From: an uncultured SAR116 cluster alpha proteobacterium
GTDB taxonomy: Bacteria > Pseudomonadota > Alphaproteobacteria > Puniceispirillales > Marisalimonadaceae
Assembly (NCBI GenBank): GCA_902578805.1
Contig: CACHEH010000001.1
Location: 124,001 to 188,000 of the forward strand
DNA: 64,000 nucleotides
Reading direction: 5' to 3'
The notes below the pieces were generated by a model. The model searched no databases, was not told where the DNA came from, and worked only from the letters and a program-made list of their open reading frames with translations. Positions 14,832 to 43,723 of this stretch are shown one piece after another (position 1 is the first letter of the stretch; each line of letters begins with the position of its first letter). A program made the position numbers and the translations under genes.

Positions 14832-16331
14832 ATGGTTAAAAAAAATTCTAAGATTATTACAGATGATATTATTAAACAAGACGGTTCATGTGTTTTATGT
14901 TATGGTCATTTTAACATTATTCATCCGGGGCATTTAAGATTTCTAGAATTTGCCTCTAAGCACGGTACTTTGCTTAAAGTATTTCTTCAAAATGATAAAC
15001 ATTTAAATTCTTCGGAAAAAAAATATTTTTTCAATCAAACTGACAGGGCTAATGCTTTAGCATCTCTAGAACTAATTGATCAAGTTATAATACAAAAAAA
15101 ACTAGATTTAATAGAAATAATTGACATTTTAAAGCCACAATTTCTTATACTTGGTAAAGAACATGAAAACAAAGGTCCATTGAATACAGCTTTGATAAGG
15201 CAAAAAATGACTTCTATTAAAGGAAAAGTTGTTTTTCATTCTGGCACAACCCAATACTCAAATTCTGAACTAAAAATGAACCAAGATTCAAATCAAAACC
15301 AAGTTTTTGCATTAGCTTGCAGAAGAAGAGGAATTGATGAGATAAAATTAAAAAAATTAATAACTAAATTTGATAAAGCCTCTTTACTTGTTCTAGGTGA
15401 CACTATAGTTGATCAATATATAGCATGTGATCCGTTAGGTATGAGCTCAGAAGCACCTGTCATAGTAGTTAAAGAGTTAGAATCCGAAGAATATTTAGGT
15501 GGTGCAGGAATTGTTGCGGCACACTTAAGCGCGCTAGGTGCGAACACAAAATTTATTTCTGTTGTTGGAGATGACACATACTCTAAACTAGCTGAAAATA
15601 AACTTATAAAACATAATATTTCTCATGATTTATTTATTGATGAGAGCAGACCAACCACTTTTAAAATAAGATATTTAGTTGATAATCAAAAAATATTTAG
15701 AGTTAGTAAATTAAAAGAGCATAACTTATCTAAGGAAATTGAAGATAAAGTTATAGAAAAATTATATGAGGTAGCAACAAAAATTTCGTCAATCTTAATT
15801 TGCGATTTTGTATACGGGGTTATTACACCAAGAATACTGAGTGAAATTTCAAATATTGTTAAAAAGTACAACCTCTTAGTTTTTGGTGATTTGCAATGCA
15901 GTAGTCAAGTTGGTAATATATCAAAATTTCAAAATTTTAATCTAATTTGTCCAACAGAAAGAGAAGCTAGAATTGGGATTAACAATAAAGATGATAGCGT
16001 CGAACAAGTATCAAATAAAATTTTAGATATTACACAATCAAGAAATTTAATCATGAAACTTGGTGCAAACGGATTTATTACATATGAAAAAACTAAATAT
16101 AATTTTATAGATAAAGAACATTTTCCAGCTTTAACTAAAAACCCTCTTGATGTTGCAGGAGCTGGAGATAGTTTGCTTGCTGGGGTTGCGTTAAGTTTAA
16201 CGTGTGGATCTGATATAATGACTGCTTCAGCTATTGGGGCTTATATGGCATCATTGGCAGTACAGTCAATAGGTAATAAATCAGTGGATAAAAAAACTTT
16301 GATCGAATACATAGAAAGGAATTTTTCTTGA
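14832..16331 (+). CDS. nucleotidyltransferase-PfkB kinase fusion (HldE activities in inverted order)
   Basis: 499 residues in two domains. Residues 18-148 are a cytidylyltransferase-like domain with the H-x-G-H motif (His31-Pro-Gly-His34 in GHFNIIHPGHL). Residues 180-499 are a PfkB/ribokinase-type kinase with GGAG at 223-226 and the catalytic GAGD at 443-446. HldE, the bifunctional heptose enzyme, has the kinase first and the nucleotidyltransferase second; here the order is reversed. The protein should phosphorylate a sugar or sugar phosphate at C1 and then nucleotidylate it. It overlaps the next SDR gene by 4 nt (TTGA). Downstream transketolase and HAD genes fit a heptose-like route. Confidence 0.85.
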   Translation: MVKKNSKIITDDIIKQDGSCVLCYGHFNIIHPGHLRFLEFASKHGTLLKVFLQNDKHLNSSEKKYFFNQTDRANALASLELIDQVIIQKKLDLIEIIDILKPQFLILGKEHENKGPLNTALIRQKMTSIKGKVVFHSGTTQYSNSELKMNQDSNQNQVFALACRRRGIDEIKLKKLITKFDKASLLVLGDTIVDQYIACDPLGMSSEAPVIVVKELESEEYLGGAGIVAAHLSALGANTKFISVVGDDTYSKLAENKLIKHNISHDLFIDESRPTTFKIRYLVDNQKIFRVSKLKEHNLSKEIEDKVIEKLYEVATKISSILICDFVYGVITPRILSEISNIVKKYNLLVFGDLQCSSQVGNISKFQNFNLICPTEREARIGINNKDDSVEQVSNKILDITQSRNLIMKLGANGFITYEKTKYNFIDKEHFPALTKNPLDVAGAGDSLLAGVALSLTCGSDIMTASAIGAYMASLAVQSIGNKSVDKKTLIEYIERNFS

Positions 16332-36117: not shown

Positions 36118-37572
36118 ATGAAATTTAGGATTTTTGCGATTATTTTAGTTATTCTAATAATCATAATTGCATTTATGTTTAAAATAATAGGGACTAATCA
36201 CCCTGTTGCAAACTTAATGAGAACTTATATACCTAACTTTATTATTGAGCCCGTAAAAGAAACAATTTTTGTTTTTAAACAAAATAAGATTTTAGAAGAT
36301 AAAATTATTTATTTAAATAAAAAAATCACAGACAAGGAAAATACTATAAAAAAAATAAACCATCTTTTTCCTGATCTTCCAAATTTATTGGGTTTTATTC
36401 CTATTAGTAAAGTTAAAGATATAACATATTTTGAATTTGACAATTTTAAATATAAACTTGAAAAATTCAACACAGGCTTGTTACTTACATCAAAACATCG
36501 AGGCAGCATTGGAAATTCATACATAGATTTTAAAAATGAAAATTTATTTATGACAACAGCTAATGGAATTTTTTCTTATACAAATTTTAAAAATTTTGAG
36601 AAAGAAAATTTTAAATTTCAAGTTATAAAATCTAACATAAAAGAAATTATTAAATATGAAGATTTTTATTCTATCTCTTCTTATGGAATTAAAGACATGT
36701 TAATACATAAAAATTATTTATATGTTTCATACTCTAACGAGTATAAGAAGGACTGCTTTAATACTGGAATTTTAAGAGCAAAACTAAATACTGATTTTTT
36801 AAATTTTTACAAATTTTTTAACCCTCAAACATGTATAATGAAGTTAAACGATTACGGAGAATTTAATGCTCATCACTCTGGAGGAAGAATTATTAATTAT
36901 AAAGATGATAAATTATTATTTTCAACAGGAGAGTATAGATATAGAACTCACGCACAAAACAAAAATAATTTATTAGGAAAAATCATCTCAATTGACCTTA
37001 AAAATAAACAAACTAAAATTTTATCAATTGGTCATAGAAATCCACAAGGTCTTTTTTATGATAAAGAAATGAACTATATAATATCAACTGAACATGGACC
37101 AAAAGGAGGAGATGAAATAAATTTGAACGATCTTAATAAAGTTGAAATAAAAAATTTTGGTTGGCCTATTTCTTCTTATGGTGTGCATTATATCCCTTCT
37201 AAAAAGAAACTAGAGAGTGCACCATTACATAAAAGCCACAAAAAATTTGGATTTAAAGAGCCATTAAAATATTTTACTCCTTCGATAGGCATTTCAGAAA
37301 TTATAAAAATAAGTTCTGAATTCAATAATATACAGAAAACACAATATTTTTTTGGAGCCCTAGGAAAAAGTTTCCAAGATCATGGTTATGAGGGACACCA
37401 ATCTCTTCACCAAGTAATTTATGATGAAGACTTTGAATTAATCAAACATAATATATTTAATCTTGAAGAAAGAGTAAGGGATCTATTATACTCAAAGTCA
37501 AAACGTAAACTTTTTTTGTATTTAGAATCAACTGCATCAATTGGCGTTTTATCACTAGTAAGTCATAATTAA
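36118..37572 (+). CDS. membrane-anchored PQQ-type sugar dehydrogenase-like beta-propeller
   Basis: 484 residues. An N-terminal membrane helix (6-25) anchors a periplasmic domain. A coiled-coil-like stretch (55-82) is followed by a six-bladed propeller similar to soluble glucose dehydrogenase/Asd: AHHSGGRI at 251-258, HRNPQG at 306-311, EHGPKGGDEINL at 325-336 and NFGWP at 346-350. These are the substrate-His, PQQ/Ca and blade motifs of the GSDH family, although whether this member binds PQQ is open. Such genes also appear in glycan clusters with unknown roles. It is followed after 54 nt by a large GT-C-like membrane protein. Confidence 0.78.
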   Translation: MKFRIFAIILVILIIIIAFMFKIIGTNHPVANLMRTYIPNFIIEPVKETIFVFKQNKILEDKIIYLNKKITDKENTIKKINHLFPDLPNLLGFIPISKVKDITYFEFDNFKYKLEKFNTGLLLTSKHRGSIGNSYIDFKNENLFMTTANGIFSYTNFKNFEKENFKFQVIKSNIKEIIKYEDFYSISSYGIKDMLIHKNYLYVSYSNEYKKDCFNTGILRAKLNTDFLNFYKFFNPQTCIMKLNDYGEFNAHHSGGRIINYKDDKLLFSTGEYRYRTHAQNKNNLLGKIISIDLKNKQTKILSIGHRNPQGLFYDKEMNYIISTEHGPKGGDEINLNDLNKVEIKNFGWPISSYGVHYIPSKKKLESAPLHKSHKKFGFKEPLKYFTPSIGISEIIKISSEFNNIQKTQYFFGALGKSFQDHGYEGHQSLHQVIYDEDFELIKHNIFNLEERVRDLLYSKSKRKLFLYLESTASIGVLSLVSHN

Positions 37573-37626: not shown

Positions 37627-39687
37627 TTGAATTCAACTTCTATGTTTATCTTAATTTTTCCATACCTTATGACTATTTCATTAGTTTTAATCCTACATAG
37701 GTATTTTTATAAACTAATTATTAATAATTGGCACACAAATGATTATGACATTAGTTTAAAAATCGGAATATTAATTTTAATTTCATTATTTTTGTCTTTT
37801 GAATTTTTTTTGTTTGGTAAAAATTCTCTGTTAATAATTTATGACGAAGCTGATACTTTTTTTCCTTTATATAAGACTCTGTCAGAAGACCCAATATCAA
37901 ACATTTTTTTTTCATTTAGTGGAGGACTTAACAGAAATGGTGTTATGTTTGATACTAAATTTATTAGTCTGCAAGTAATTTTACTATCGTTATTTAATCC
38001 CTTTGCAGGTTATGTAGCCATTAAAATCATAAACGCTTTTTTAGTTGTGTTTGGTTTTTGGTTTTTAACAAAAAACAATCTTAAACATACGTTAATATTA
38101 TCTGTGATTTATTATGGATCTTTGATTTACATAAGTACAATTTCTATTGCTCATATGAGTGGATATTCAGCAATTCCACTTACTATTTTTATATTGTACC
38201 AATATGAAAGTAAATCCGTTGTAAAAAAATCATTAATTTTGTTAGCATATTTTCTTTTTATTTCAATATCTTCAAGTCTTCCGCACTCTATTATGGCTCA
38301 TATTGCAGGGATTTTTAGTGGTTTATTTTTATACAAATTAAGTAAAAGAAATATTCTTTTTTGTATTAAAGGGATTTTATTACTTAGTACTTTTTCAGTA
38401 CTTAATCATCTCCCAGTAATTGAATTTGTTCTCAATAATAAAGATATATTATTCAGAACATCTCAAAATATTGAAACGTTCAACTTCAAACATATTTTTT
38501 ATCACCCTTTTTACGAATTATTTTCAAAATTGAGAGGACCACTTTTTTTCATTTTCGGTACTTTATTTATTATAACTCTGTACTTTCTTTACGATTTAAA
38601 ATCAAAAGTAATTGCAATTATCTGTCCAATTTTATTATCAATTTCATTAGATTTAGTACTAACTGTTGAAGCTTTTTCTTTTATAAACACTCTAAGATCT
38701 GAGATGATTGTGTTGTCAGTTCCATCAGTTATTATTATTGCATTTTATCAATTTTTTAATGAAAAAAAAAATAAAGTATCCTTTTTAAAAACCAAGAATT
38801 TAAATTTTATAGTTTTAATTATATTCTCCTATTTTATATGTGATACAAAATTTAGTCATTTCTTACATTGGCAAGGGGAGGGAAGTTTCAAATCTAATTT
38901 GATTTTAGATGAAAAACTCAAAAAGTATTTGATAAGCAAAAATATAATAAGTGATGATTCTAAAATTTTAAGTAATTTTAGAAGTGTAGTGATTCCAACA
39001 AAGTTAACACCAGGACTATTGTGGTATCATAGGATTAATTCTTTAGACGGATATTCTAGTTTCTTTCCTAAGAAAAGAGCTTTAAAATGGATGCAAGTTT
39101 TTAACACACATTTACATAATGAACAGTATATAACAAACAGATATCATATTAAATTCAGTAATTTTAGTGTAAGTAAAAATTTACTAAACGATAACAAAAT
39201 AAATTTCTTAAGATCTCATGGTGTAAGATTTTATTTTTCGTCAGTGCCATTACAAGAAAAGAATCTTGAGTTAAAGTATAATAAATCATTTAAAGAAAGA
39301 ACTAACAATTTATTTCAAATACATATATCCAACTTTTACAGAAATTTAAGAAATATGGATTTTTATGTTTATGAAGACGTTGATTATGAACCTATGGTTC
39401 AAATTAGAAACTTTAAAGATGAATTAATATGTAGTAAAAAAATTTTTATAAAAATAAAAAAAGATCATCTCTTATTAGATTTAAGAAATTGTAGAAAGTT
39501 AGTGTCAAAAGAAAATTATTCTCTAATAGTATCACTTCCAAATTTTGAAAAACTAAGAGTTAATCAAAATGATGTTATTTCTTATTTCAATATAAACAAA
39601 GAATTAAAATTTGTTATACCAATAAATTTTAGTAATAAAAAATTAAGTTTAAAACCAGTTACATTCAATAAAAGTAGTCTAAATTAA
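37627..39687 (+). CDS. large polytopic membrane protein, GT-C/DUF6044-like
   Basis: 686 residues with about a dozen hydrophobic helices up to residue 400 and a mainly soluble C-terminal part of 280 residues. After the second helix, LIIYDEADTFFPLYK places Asp73, Glu74 and Asp76 in the first periplasmic loop, where GT-C transferases keep their catalytic acid. The layout resembles DUF6044/YfhO-like proteins. It may use a polyprenyl-phosphate sugar, and the UbiA cassette downstream could supply one. The start TTG 37627 has AGGGA 10 nt upstream; ATG 37642 is the alternative. Function unproven. Confidence 0.62.
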   Translation: MNSTSMFILIFPYLMTISLVLILHRYFYKLIINNWHTNDYDISLKIGILILISLFLSFEFFLFGKNSLLIIYDEADTFFPLYKTLSEDPISNIFFSFSGGLNRNGVMFDTKFISLQVILLSLFNPFAGYVAIKIINAFLVVFGFWFLTKNNLKHTLILSVIYYGSLIYISTISIAHMSGYSAIPLTIFILYQYESKSVVKKSLILLAYFLFISISSSLPHSIMAHIAGIFSGLFLYKLSKRNILFCIKGILLLSTFSVLNHLPVIEFVLNNKDILFRTSQNIETFNFKHIFYHPFYELFSKLRGPLFFIFGTLFIITLYFLYDLKSKVIAIICPILLSISLDLVLTVEAFSFINTLRSEMIVLSVPSVIIIAFYQFFNEKKNKVSFLKTKNLNFIVLIIFSYFICDTKFSHFLHWQGEGSFKSNLILDEKLKKYLISKNIISDDSKILSNFRSVVIPTKLTPGLLWYHRINSLDGYSSFFPKKRALKWMQVFNTHLHNEQYITNRYHIKFSNFSVSKNLLNDNKINFLRSHGVRFYFSSVPLQEKNLELKYNKSFKERTNNLFQIHISNFYRNLRNMDFYVYEDVDYEPMVQIRNFKDELICSKKIFIKIKKDHLLLDLRNCRKLVSKENYSLIVSLPNFEKLRVNQNDVISYFNINKELKFVIPINFSNKKLSLKPVTFNKSSLN

Positions 39688-39869: not shown

Positions 39870-40763
39870 ATGACATACACAATTTTTGATAAACTTATAC
39901 CATATTTTCAGATTATGAGGTTTAATAATTGGGTAAAAAATATTTTAATATTTTTACCTATATTATCCTCTCATAATTTAGAAACTGAATATCTCATAAA
40001 CACCATATTTATTTTTTTTATGTTTAGTTTAACAGCTTCTTCAATGTATATCATTAATGATTATTTCGATTACGAAAAAGATTTATTGAACAAAGCAAAG
40101 AAAAAAAGACCAATAGCTTCTGGTAAAATATCAAAAAAGAATGGCTTAATTCTGTTTTTTTTATTACAAATATTTTTACTAATTATTTTGTTTTTATCAG
40201 ATAACTTGAAATTATTAGCTTTTTTAATGTTCTATAATCTGATTGTTTATTTTTACACTATTAAGATTAAGTTAATTAAATTTTTAGATGTTTTTGTTTT
40301 GGGTTTGTTATTTGTTTACCGAGTTTATATTGGTGCAGAATTTAATAATTTAGAAGTATCAATTTGGATTATAAACTTTACATTTTTTTTCTTCGTTGGA
40401 TTGGCATTTTTAAAAAGGCACGCAGAATTAAATAGTGACTTTATTGAAAAGAAAAATTTAAGGAAATTACGACCCTATGAAAAGGAAGATAAACAAATAA
40501 TAAGTCTGTTTAGTTTTATATGTATCACTATAGCTACTATTTTACTTATTAATTATTTTTCTACTTCTAAAATTAAATTACTTTATCAGAATGCAATTTA
40601 TCTTTATGCAATTCCACCTGTTTTTTTTACTTATTGTTTTATCCTATTAGACAAACTCATTATTAACAAATCTATTGAAGATCCTATAAATTATTGCTTA
40701 AGGCTTAAAAGTAGCTGGATATTTTTTATTTTTATTTTAATATTACTTATTTTGGCTAAATAA
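39870..40763 (+). CDS. UbiA-family prenyltransferase, polyprenyl-phosphate phosphoribosyltransferase-like
   Basis: 297 residues and about eight or nine membrane helices. The first Asp-rich motif is NDYFDYEKD (Asn63, Asp64, Asp67, Asp71), followed by KKKRPIASGKIS. FLDVFVLGLLFVYRVYIGAEF and AFLKRHAELNSD match the second motif and the K-R-x-A-E-L stretch of decaprenyl-phosphate phosphoribosyltransferases (Rv3806c type) better than quinone-type UbiA. The reaction expected is transfer of a 5-phosphopentose from PRPP to polyprenyl phosphate. The two downstream genes could dephosphorylate, modify and flip the product. Confidence 0.8.
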   Translation: MTYTIFDKLIPYFQIMRFNNWVKNILIFLPILSSHNLETEYLINTIFIFFMFSLTASSMYIINDYFDYEKDLLNKAKKKRPIASGKISKKNGLILFFLLQIFLLIILFLSDNLKLLAFLMFYNLIVYFYTIKIKLIKFLDVFVLGLLFVYRVYIGAEFNNLEVSIWIINFTFFFFVGLAFLKRHAELNSDFIEKKNLRKLRPYEKEDKQIISLFSFICITIATILLINYFSTSKIKLLYQNAIYLYAIPPVFFTYCFILLDKLIINKSIEDPINYCLRLKSSWIFFIFILILLILAK

Positions 40764-40780
40764 CTAATTCGGAAAATTTA

Positions 40781-41161
40781 TTGAACAGTTTTATTTTTAC
40801 AATGATAGGTTTATTTCTATCTATTGCTTTAAATGCTAGCGCCCAGATTTTTTTGCGTACTGCAGTAATGAATAAAAAATTAAGTTTTAGTATAGAGGTG
40901 ATACTCGAATTAATAAAATCTATTCATATTTGGTATGGAATGATTTGTTATAGTTTTAGCATTTTTTTGTGGATATTTGTATTATCTAAAATTCAAGTTT
41001 CTCTCGCGTATCCTTTTCAAGCTTTAGGATATATCTTGGGATCATTCTTAGCATGGTATTTATTAGATGAAAAAGTAAATAATTTAAATTTAACGGGATT
41101 AATTTTTATTTCAATTGGACTAATAATTTTATCAATAGGAATTTATAATAATGAAAGATAA
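40781..41161 (+). CDS. small four-helix transporter (EmrE/ArnE-ArnF-like flippase subunit)
   Basis: 126 residues with four membrane helices. ALNASAQIFLRTAV at the start and QVSLAYPFQALGYILGSFLAWYLLDE with a final GLIFISIGLIILSIG match the SMR/ArnE-ArnF pattern. ArnE/F flip 4-amino-4-deoxy-arabinose phosphoundecaprenol, and related small proteins flip other polyprenyl-phosphate sugars. It begins at TTG 40781, 17 nt after the UbiA-like gene, and its end overlaps the SDR-PgpA gene by 11 nt. A drug-export role is less likely in this setting. Confidence 0.75.
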   Translation: MNSFIFTMIGLFLSIALNASAQIFLRTAVMNKKLSFSIEVILELIKSIHIWYGMICYSFSIFLWIFVLSKIQVSLAYPFQALGYILGSFLAWYLLDEKVNNLNLTGLIFISIGLIILSIGIYNNER

Positions 41162-42599
41162 TATTATTATTATTGGTGGAAGTGGATTAGTTGGAAAAGC
41201 AATAATTAATCTAGAAGAAATTAAGTCAAAGTTTAAGATATTTGTATTAGACAGACATTGTGATGTAGATAAACATTTTGTTGACTTCATAGAATGTGAT
41301 ATTAATAAAAGTAAATTCTATAAAGATATTTTTAAGTTATTACCAAAAAAATCCTTCATAATAAACTTAGCTGCAAGACAATACGGAGATAATCCTCCTA
41401 AAAAAGATAGACTCAATTGGTTTTTAGAAACAAATTATTATGGATGTAAAAACGTTCTTAAACTTGCATCAACACTTGATGCAAAAGGTTTTATTCAATT
41501 CTCCACCGACATGGTTTATGGAATTCCTTCTTCAGGATTAATAAGCGAAAATCACCCAATCAAGCCTATAGGTGAATATGGGGTATCTAAAGCAAAAATA
41601 GAAAATTATATAATAAACAATCGAGATAATTATAAATTTACTATTTCAATAATGAGGCCAAGAATGATACTTGGGAAAGGACGTCTAGGAGTTTTAATAA
41701 AATTATTTAAATTAATTCAAAAAAATCTTCCAGTACCTCTAATAGGATCTGGTCGAAATTTTTATCAAATGGTCTCGGATAGAGATTGTGCCAGAGCGGT
41801 TTATTATTGTATAAAAGCGAAATGCCCACCTAAAGCTTTTAATCTTGGATCTGAAGTAAAAGAAAACGTTGAAAATCTTATAAAAAATTTAATCTATGAT
41901 AGTAACTCTCGTTCAGTATTAATTAAAACTTCGGCTAAATTAACAAAAACACTAATAAAAATACTAAATTTGTTTTCTATAGAAATTTTATTTAAAGAAC
42001 AATATGAGTTAGCTGACAAAAACTTTATATTAGATATAACAAGATCTAATAAAGTTTTGAATTGGTACCCAAAAGACAATGATACTAGTATGATGAAAGT
42101 CGCCTACAAAGCTTGGATGAAAGATAATATAGTTATAAAAATACCAAAAAACTTGAAAACCTTTGTTCTTTCGTGTGGATTTATTGGCTTTTTCCCGATA
42201 GCTTCTGGTACTTTTTGTTCGTTTATTTTTGCATTTTTAGGGTATATAATTAATGTTACATATAGTTGGAAATTAACTTTTACATTATCAATGTTAACTC
42301 TAATTCTTGGAACTTATTTTTGTTTTAAATTGAACAAAAATGTTTCAAAAAAAGATCCTGGCTGGGTGGTTATTGATGAAGCTGCTGGACAGCTGATTGT
42401 ATCATCATTTGCTGGATTAAATCCACTTATGCATTTCATTGGTTTTATATTTTTTAGATTTTTTGATATTACAAAAATTGGATTAATTAAAAAATCAGAG
42501 AAAATTAGGTTTGGAGTTGGTATAATGGCTGACGACTTTTTAGCAGCATGGATAACAGTCCTAATCTTAGTTTGCTCAAGCTTTTTTTTAAAATTTTAA
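41151..42599 (+). CDS. SDR sugar epimerase / PgpA phosphatase fusion
   Basis: 482 residues. Residues 1-315 form an extended SDR: IIGGSGLVGKAI, FSTDMVYG, YGVSKAK (Tyr143, Lys147) and MRPRMILGKGRL. Residues 335-482 are a complete PgpA domain: GFFPIASGTF at 346-355, DPGWVVIDEAAGQ at 402-414, FRFFD at 435-439 and GIMADD at 457-462, with membrane helices. PgpA removes the phosphate from phosphatidylglycerophosphate. In this cassette a polyprenyl-phosphoryl 5-phosphopentose is a more likely target, and the SDR may act on the dephosphorylated sugar. An internal ATG at 42117 could give a free PgpA domain. No stop separates the halves. Confidence 0.85.
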   Translation: MKDNIIIIGGSGLVGKAIINLEEIKSKFKIFVLDRHCDVDKHFVDFIECDINKSKFYKDIFKLLPKKSFIINLAARQYGDNPPKKDRLNWFLETNYYGCKNVLKLASTLDAKGFIQFSTDMVYGIPSSGLISENHPIKPIGEYGVSKAKIENYIINNRDNYKFTISIMRPRMILGKGRLGVLIKLFKLIQKNLPVPLIGSGRNFYQMVSDRDCARAVYYCIKAKCPPKAFNLGSEVKENVENLIKNLIYDSNSRSVLIKTSAKLTKTLIKILNLFSIEILFKEQYELADKNFILDITRSNKVLNWYPKDNDTSMMKVAYKAWMKDNIVIKIPKNLKTFVLSCGFIGFFPIASGTFCSFIFAFLGYIINVTYSWKLTFTLSMLTLILGTYFCFKLNKNVSKKDPGWVVIDEAAGQLIVSSFAGLNPLMHFIGFIFFRFFDITKIGLIKKSEKIRFGVGIMADDFLAAWITVLILVCSSFFLKF

Positions 42600-42700
42600 A
42601 TAAAGATTTAAAATTTATATTTTACATTTTAAACTATAAACAGGGCAATAATTTTAAATTTAATATTAAAAAATCATTAGTATTCATTATAATTCTAATA

Positions 42701-42706
42701 AAGGAG
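42701..42706 (+). promoter_or_regulatory. Shine-Dalgarno AAGGAG deciding the neuB start
   Basis: AAGGAG lies 6 nt upstream of TTG 42713. The frame is open back to 42548, but the conserved NeuB N-terminus begins at this TTG. Confidence 0.75.
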
Positions 42707-42712
42707 ACCACC

Positions 42713-43723
42713 TTGAAGAATGGAAAAGTTTATATAATTGCAGAGGCCGGGGTAAACCATAATGGATGTGTTAAAACAGCTATGAAATTAATTGATTATG
42801 CGTCTAATTCAGGAGCAGATGCTATCAAATTTCAAACTTTTAAAGCTGATACTTTAGTGACAAGATATGCTGAAAAAGCCGAATACCAAAAAAAAATTAA
42901 CAATGATTACGACAGTCAATATGAAATGATCAAAAGGTTAGAATTAAATTATTCTGACCATATCACATTATCTCAATATGCTTTCGAAAAAAAAATTGAG
43001 TTTTTATCAACCCCTTTTGATCTAGAAAGTATAGATTTATTATTTGAATTAGGTTTAGAAAAATTTAAAATTCCAAGTGGAGAGATAACAAATCTGCCAT
43101 ATTTAGAAAAAATTGGACGACTGAATAAAGAAATCATTTTGTCTACCGGGATGAGTACCTTAAAAGAAATTGAACAGGCTATTAGTGTTTTGATATCCTC
43201 AGGTTCAAAAAAAGAAAACTTAACAGTTTTACACTGTAATACTGAATACCCTACCCCTTTGATAGATGTAAACTTGAAAGCAATGGTAAATATTGGCAAC
43301 ACTTTCAATGTAAACTTTGGTTATAGTGATCATACTTTAGGTATACATGTTCCAGTAGCTGCCGTTTCGATGGGAGCAAAAATAATAGAAAAACATTTCA
43401 CATGTGATAAAAATATGGAAGGTCCTGATCACAAGGCAAGTCTTTGTCCTCTAGAGTTAAATCAAATGGTTAAGCTTATAAGAAATACTGAGATAGCATT
43501 AGGTAAATCGATCAAGGAACCTACTGGAAGTGAAATTAAAAATATAAAAATAGCTAGAAAATCAATTGTTGCTAAAACTTCTATAAAAAAAGGTGAAAAT
43601 TTTTCCTTGTATAATCTAACTACTAAGAGACCAGGTGACGGCATAAGCCCTATGAAATGGCATGACGTTTTAAAACTAGTAGCAAAAAAGGATTTTAAAA
43701 AAGATGATTTAATAGAAATTTAG
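42713..43723 (+). CDS. neuB: NeuB-family nonulosonate (sialic/legionaminic acid) synthase
   Basis: 336 residues from TTG 42713, chosen because AAGGAG is 6 nt upstream and IIAEAGVNHNGCVKTA is the family start. DAIKFQTFKADTLV, KIPSGEITNLPYLE, LSTGMST, LHCNTEYPTP, FGYSDHTLGI and IEKHFTCDKNMEGPDHKAS follow NeuB/LegI. The C-terminal SAF/antifreeze-like domain (ARKSIVAKTSIKKGE) completes it. It condenses phosphoenolpyruvate with a six-carbon 2,4-diacetamido or N-acyl-mannosamine-type sugar. It is tail-to-tail with the FAD enzyme with a 4-nt overlap. The substrate is probably the NeuC product encoded at 47 kb. Confidence 0.93.
   Translation: MKNGKVYIIAEAGVNHNGCVKTAMKLIDYASNSGADAIKFQTFKADTLVTRYAEKAEYQKKINNDYDSQYEMIKRLELNYSDHITLSQYAFEKKIEFLSTPFDLESIDLLFELGLEKFKIPSGEITNLPYLEKIGRLNKEIILSTGMSTLKEIEQAISVLISSGSKKENLTVLHCNTEYPTPLIDVNLKAMVNIGNTFNVNFGYSDHTLGIHVPVAAVSMGAKIIEKHFTCDKNMEGPDHKASLCPLELNQMVKLIRNTEIALGKSIKEPTGSEIKNIKIARKSIVAKTSIKKGENFSLYNLTTKRPGDGISPMKWHDVLKLVAKKDFKKDDLIEI

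Follow-up and report, generated by a model that had tools for sequence, protein, structure and literature searches.

We analyzed a 64,000-nucleotide stretch of DNA (the window) that lies on contig 1 of a 1.49-Mb SAR116 assembly estimated to be 70% complete. The window has a GC content of 27% and forms a glycan-biosynthesis island. Three genes lie close together on its forward strand: a UbiA-family gene (39870 to 40763; 297 amino acids [aa]), a gene for a small four-helix SMR protein (40781 to 41161; 126 aa), and an open reading frame (ORF) that joins an extended SDR domain to a PgpA domain in a single continuous frame (41151 to 42599; 482 aa). The gap between the UbiA and SMR genes is 17 bp, and the SMR gene and the fusion ORF overlap by 11 nt. 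An earlier note on this DNA had described the same three genes, and their ORFs, motifs, and Pfam domains were all confirmed. The mechanical start of the following NeuB ORF (42548 to 43723) falls within the fusion gene, and its true start is likely a TTG codon near 42713, preceded by AAGGAG. Elsewhere in the window, the ORF at 14832 to 16331 encodes an HldE-like single chain with a cytidylyltransferase domain placed before a PfkB kinase domain.

The UbiA protein carries the motifs NDYFDYEKD (residues 63 to 71) and KRHAEL (residues 182 to 187) and matches Pfam UbiA at 9.9e-23. Its top curated NCBIfam profiles were PRK08238 (3.8e-61), a UbiA-family model of about 480 aa of which the window protein covers the C-terminal part, and DPPR synthase (decaprenyl-phosphate phosphoribosyltransferase; 7.8e-32). 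Mycobacterial Rv3806c (8j8j) was both the best PDB match by sequence and the best fold match of the AlphaFold model (pLDDT 90.8; TM 0.73). Of the Rv3806c residues to which binding of PRPP, Mg, or the 5-phosphate has been assigned (PMC10994848), the window UbiA keeps nine (R17, K23, Y60, N63, D67, K77, R80, Y129, and K134), with K23, Y60, and K77 corresponding to K28, Y70, and K87 of Rv3806c, while Gln135 of Rv3806c, which touches ribose O3, is replaced by Val. The window's genome has a separate CtaB and 4-HB UbiA, in which the counterparts of K28, Y70, and K87 are M, G, and T and G, C, and T, respectively. These data bear on the reading that the UbiA protein is a prenyltransferase for quinone, heme, or archaeal-type lipid and that its neighbors are unrelated. 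The protein does belong to the UbiA superfamily, and an approximately unbiased (AU) test of a tree constrained to group it with the quinone and heme UbiAs of its genome did not reject that grouping (p-AU 0.088), although the branches are long. However, DPPR synthase types top both the profile and the fold rankings, the phosphoribosyltransferase-specific residues are present in the window UbiA but not in CtaB or the 4-HB UbiA, and the genome already has both housekeeping enzymes. A quinone or heme role was rejected on the basis of these residues, profiles, and enzymes, and we regard the broader reading as extremely improbable. The assignment to the DPPR type made in the earlier note therefore holds, and profile, fold, and active-site residues agree in making the prediction of a PRPP-dependent polyprenyl-phosphate phosphoribosyltransferase well supported. 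DPPR-type UbiAs were also present in 67 of 385 alphaproteobacterial genomes in a class-wide sample, often adjoining DprE1 and DprE2, and from this count, lipid-linked pentose pathways look common in Alphaproteobacteria.

The small protein has four hydrophobic stretches and is nearest to ArnE (1.7e-9) and ArnF (1.2e-8) in NCBIfam, both below the curated cutoffs, and its homologue adjoins the SDR in almost all relatives. It resembles the ArnE/ArnF undecaprenyl-P-aminoarabinose flippase in being a four-helix SMR-like protein for a lipid-linked pentose, but the window has a single gene, which scores under the family cutoffs, and a different sugar route. ArnE/F homology and position support the flippase role suggested previously, and the protein is a candidate flippase of lipid-linked pentose as judged from sequence and context.

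The SDR domain of the fusion (41151 to 42137) matches Pfam Epimerase over residues 5 to 233 (1.5e-24), its fold resembles GalE and UDP-GlcA epimerases, and its YxxxK pair, Y143 and K147, is invariant among the SAR116 relatives. Homology, fold, residues, and genome comparisons give good support to the idea that this domain modifies the sugar and point to a candidate epimerase of polyprenyl-P-pentose. Members of this SDR family also accompany DprE1 in about 40 loci, and both DprE1 and DprE2 in two of the loci surveyed (L084 and L094), so the reaction of the family may differ among hosts. Rhizobiaceae loci (L058 to L100) show a conserved order of HAD-UbiA, DprE1-like oxidase, SMR, and extended SDR, mostly with no DprE2 nearby, and there the SDR may serve as the reductase partner of the DprE1-like oxidase.

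The PgpA domain (42156 to 42599) lies on the same chain as the Epimerase domain and matches Pfam PgpA at near full length (residues 339 to 474; 1.6e-30). The fusion ORF has no internal stop, and its AlphaFold model consists of two confident domains joined by a low-confidence linker at residues 329 to 351. Nearly all highly conserved PgpA residues are kept, with one Gly-to-Ala change, and the conserved charged residues D402, D409, E410, R436, D439, K442, D461, and D462 are all present. The fused domain is thus an intact PgpA (PF04608) with its acidic and basic residues, but it differs from other members in being divergent, joined to an SDR, and part of a pentose-lipid cassette, with polyprenyl-P-ribose-5-P as its proposed substrate. 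The dN/dS ratio of the fused PgpA was about 0.19, versus 0.14 to 0.21 for its neighbors, values that are rough because dS is high. The domain is under purifying selection and is as constrained as the neighboring genes.

The SAR116 genomes AG-919-I05 (G054), AG-891-N20 (G051), and AG-426-I14 (G001) belong to the same family as the window's genome. In G054, the nearest relative, the operon runs UbiA, SMR, SDR, and then an 847-aa chain made of a GT-C-like membrane part and a C-terminal PgpA that is 73% identical to the window's PgpA. A short segment of the window at the fusion junction (42123 to 42143, forward strand) aligns twice in G054, with the end of its SDR and with the beginning of its PgpA domain, and the GT-C, of about 2.04 kb, lies between these two sites. 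Other marine alphaproteobacterial genomes, including two labeled Pelagibacterales, have relatives of this GT-C immediately after SMR-SDR, and the GT-C therefore belongs to the cassette. We found no homologue of it in the window's 70%-complete assembly. The simplest history, and a probable one, is that the GT-C gene between SDR and PgpA was lost in frame, giving rise to the SDR-PgpA fusion. The covalent joining was found only in this assembly among 58 genomes of the family, 136 genomes of the order, and the scanned GTDB genomes, and no relative was found in viral contigs. Within the genomes searched, the domain pair thus occurs as a fusion in this assembly only, but the association of PgpA with the cassette recurs, as described below.

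The earlier note had also placed a GT-C-like acceptor enzyme at 37627, where the window encodes a 686-aa multihelix protein (37627 to 39687) with a large C-terminal soluble part. That role is unproven, since the protein had no Pfam match even at an E value of ≤10 and no relative among the 57 other genomes of the family. The window lacks the GT-C that belongs to the cassette in G054, and the 686-aa protein was rejected as a homologue of that GT-C since the two show no similarity. Directly upstream of this orphan membrane protein, the ORF at 36118 to 37572 encodes a glucose/sorbosone dehydrogenase domain after an N-terminal membrane anchor.

The cassette can be compared with the "three-component" pentofuranose system of the Citrobacter youngae O1/O2 O antigens, encoded by ORF12 to ORF15, which has been proven both genetically and in vitro (Kelly et al. 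2024, PMC11127046). In Citrobacter, a HAD-UbiA protein produces polyprenyl-P-ribofuranose, an SDR (ORF13) alone converts Ribf to Xylf, an ArnE/EmrE-like protein is the proposed flippase, and a GT-C transfers the sugar (PMC11127046). A UbiA phosphoribosyltransferase, a small EmrE/ArnE-like protein as candidate flippase, and a surface-glycan locus are common to both systems, and the window's SDR is a candidate counterpart of the SDR epimerase (in O2). With its GalE-like fold and YxxxK pair, the extended SDR of the window could yield xylose, as does the ORF13-type SDR epimerase of the Xylf variants, or arabinose. The two systems differ in the 5-phosphatase, which is a HAD domain on UbiA in Citrobacter and a PgpA domain on the SDR in the window, and in the acceptor enzyme, a GT-C of family GT136 in Citrobacter for which we identified no counterpart in the window. 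Pentofuranose systems outside actinobacteria have been published for Citrobacter and Pseudomonas, and related systems employ other phosphatase families (PMC11127046). The proposal of a polyprenyl-phosphate pentose system outside actinobacteria was therefore right in outline, but because the cassette matches the proven Citrobacter system, neither the pathway nor its presence outside actinobacteria is new.

The mycobacterial decaprenyl-phospho-arabinose pathway comprises Rv3806c, Rv3807c, DprE1, DprE2, and Rv3789. It resembles the window's system in its first step, where Rv3806c and the window UbiA have the active site in common, and in the need for a 5-phosphatase and a flippase. Its phosphatase is of another family, and its two-enzyme epimerization needs DprE1, for which we found only weak GlcD-like matches and no orthologue in the window's 70%-complete assembly; neither DprE1 nor DprE2 was found near the locus. 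A DprE1-dependent arabinose route was rejected on this ground.

We scanned GTDB genomes with an SDR profile and obtained 65 loci. UbiA, SMR, and SDR recur together in Rhizobium/Ensifer, Helicobacter, beta- and gammaproteobacteria, Roseobacteraceae, and SAR116. Among the 52 loci with both UbiA and SDR, 43 had only HAD, 5 had only PgpA, none had both, and 4, one of them truncated, had neither; because the HAD loci are mostly from close Rhizobiales, these counts represent few independent lineages (about five with HAD and two with PgpA). The HAD was a stand-alone protein in four of the 43 loci and a domain on UbiA in the rest, a few of which had broken frames. In G051 and G001, a stand-alone HAD follows the SDR at the position held by PgpA in the window, and no HAD-PRP domain was matched in the part of the window from 30 to 50 kb. 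A second arrangement was found in three genomes of uncultured alphaproteobacteria and in one of Rickettsiales, in which PgpA is a separate protein of about 160 aa whose gene overlaps the beginning of UbiA. In genome G528 (locus L238, 5534 to 9699), genes for a GT-C-like protein, a PRPP synthetase paralogue (Pfam Pribosyltran_N, 5e-13), PgpA, and a phosphoribosyltransferase-type UbiA follow one another, with no SMR, SDR, or HAD in the row. Here, PgpA goes with the phosphoribosyltransferase, beside the enzyme that makes the substrate of that transferase. PgpA stood beside UbiA in none of about 40 further UbiA loci in the class-wide alphaproteobacterial sample, so the PgpA type is rare.

In the UbiA tree, the window and G054 UbiAs grouped with the HAD-fused UbiAs (97/98), with the window UbiA on a long branch, and the other PgpA-type UbiAs were placed elsewhere. 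Holding all PgpA-type UbiAs as one clade was rejected (p-AU 0.0017). A common origin of all loci of the PgpA type is thus rejected by the UbiA tree, which is best read as two separate replacements of HAD by PgpA. A single cassette-specific clade in the PgpA tree was neither shown nor rejected (p-AU 0.247). The role of 5-phosphatase that had been suggested for the PgpA domain is supported by homology, by residues, and by the occurrence of either PgpA or HAD but never both, which by sequence comparison make the domain a candidate 5-phosphatase of polyprenyl-P-ribose-5-P.

A different explanation is that the PgpA domain is the phosphatidylglycerophosphate phosphatase of the cell, relocated and fused by chance, and that another enzyme removes the 5-phosphate of the lipid-linked ribose. 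In keeping with this explanation, the 70%-complete assembly has no PgpA other than the fused one. The housekeeping pgpA of SAR116 lies in the order ispDF-pgpA-cinA, and because ispDF is missing from the assembly, this observation says nothing about the housekeeping copy of the window's own genome. At the ispDF-cinA site of G054 (L147; G054 C36, 1279 to 1510), pgpA has decayed to a pseudogene with stops and two segments, 80% and 78% identical in nucleotides to the gene of a relative, that flank a deletion of about 200 bp; sister genomes keep pgpA intact. The PgpA tree also placed the fused PgpA and its G054 partner near the SAR116 housekeeping PgpA, with weak support and on a very long branch (about 3.1). 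However, that branch also shows how strongly the fused domain has diverged from housekeeping PgpA, loci with PgpA have no HAD, and a second lineage couples PgpA to UbiA, once beside a PRPP synthetase. Two genomes of that lineage (G136 and G138) have a second PgpA elsewhere besides the cassette PgpA. Two copies are rare (3 of the 271 alphaproteobacterial genomes with PgpA), and their presence fits a dedicated role of the cassette PgpA. We consider chance relocation of the housekeeping enzyme quite unlikely.

The pseudogene in G054 means that the cassette PgpA could also serve phosphatidylglycerol synthesis in that genome. Under this explanation, one PgpA tied to glycan enzymes (the SDR in the window and the GT-C in G054) would act on both polyprenyl-P-ribose-5-P and phosphatidylglycerophosphate, and the housekeeping gene would have been free to decay and be lost. 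In its favor, each of the two substrates is a phosphomonoester bound to the membrane on the cytoplasmic side, and the cassette PgpA that coexists with the pseudogene in G054 is conserved and under selection. On the other hand, PgpA is entirely absent from about 30% of alphaproteobacterial genomes, so other phosphatases may make a housekeeping copy unnecessary. We find a double role of this kind doubtful; if it were true, a surface-glycan donor and phosphatidylglycerol synthesis would share one phosphatase.

We favor as the best explanation of the whole, and consider likely, that these genes produce a pentofuranose carried on polyprenyl phosphate and export it for a surface glycan, with PgpA as the 5-phosphatase. 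From the gene content, domain identities, residues, and co-occurrence that we observed, we infer each of the reactions as follows. After phosphoribosyl transfer by UbiA, the PgpA domain would remove the 5-phosphate, a task for which most related cassettes have HAD, either as a domain or as a protein of its own, since PgpA appears to replace HAD in the same functional slot. The SDR domain would epimerize the lipid-linked ribofuranose on the cytoplasmic side with no DprE1-type oxidase, most likely at C3 (giving xylofuranose) or C2 (giving arabinofuranose). The ArnE/F-like protein would flip the product across the membrane, where a GT-C enzyme, not identified with confidence here, would use it in the periplasm. 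The fusion of PgpA to the SDR would place two successive steps on one membrane-anchored chain.

PgpA is normally known from membrane phospholipid synthesis, and none of the literature searched connects it with this pathway. The new element is the PgpA proposed as the phosphatase of a lipid-linked pentose cassette. The 5-dephosphorylation of polyprenyl-phospho-ribose-5-phosphate is carried out by different phosphatase families in different bacteria. If our interpretation is true, PgpA would be a further independent solution to this step, evolved about twice, and would give an annotation rule for "extra" PgpA genes.
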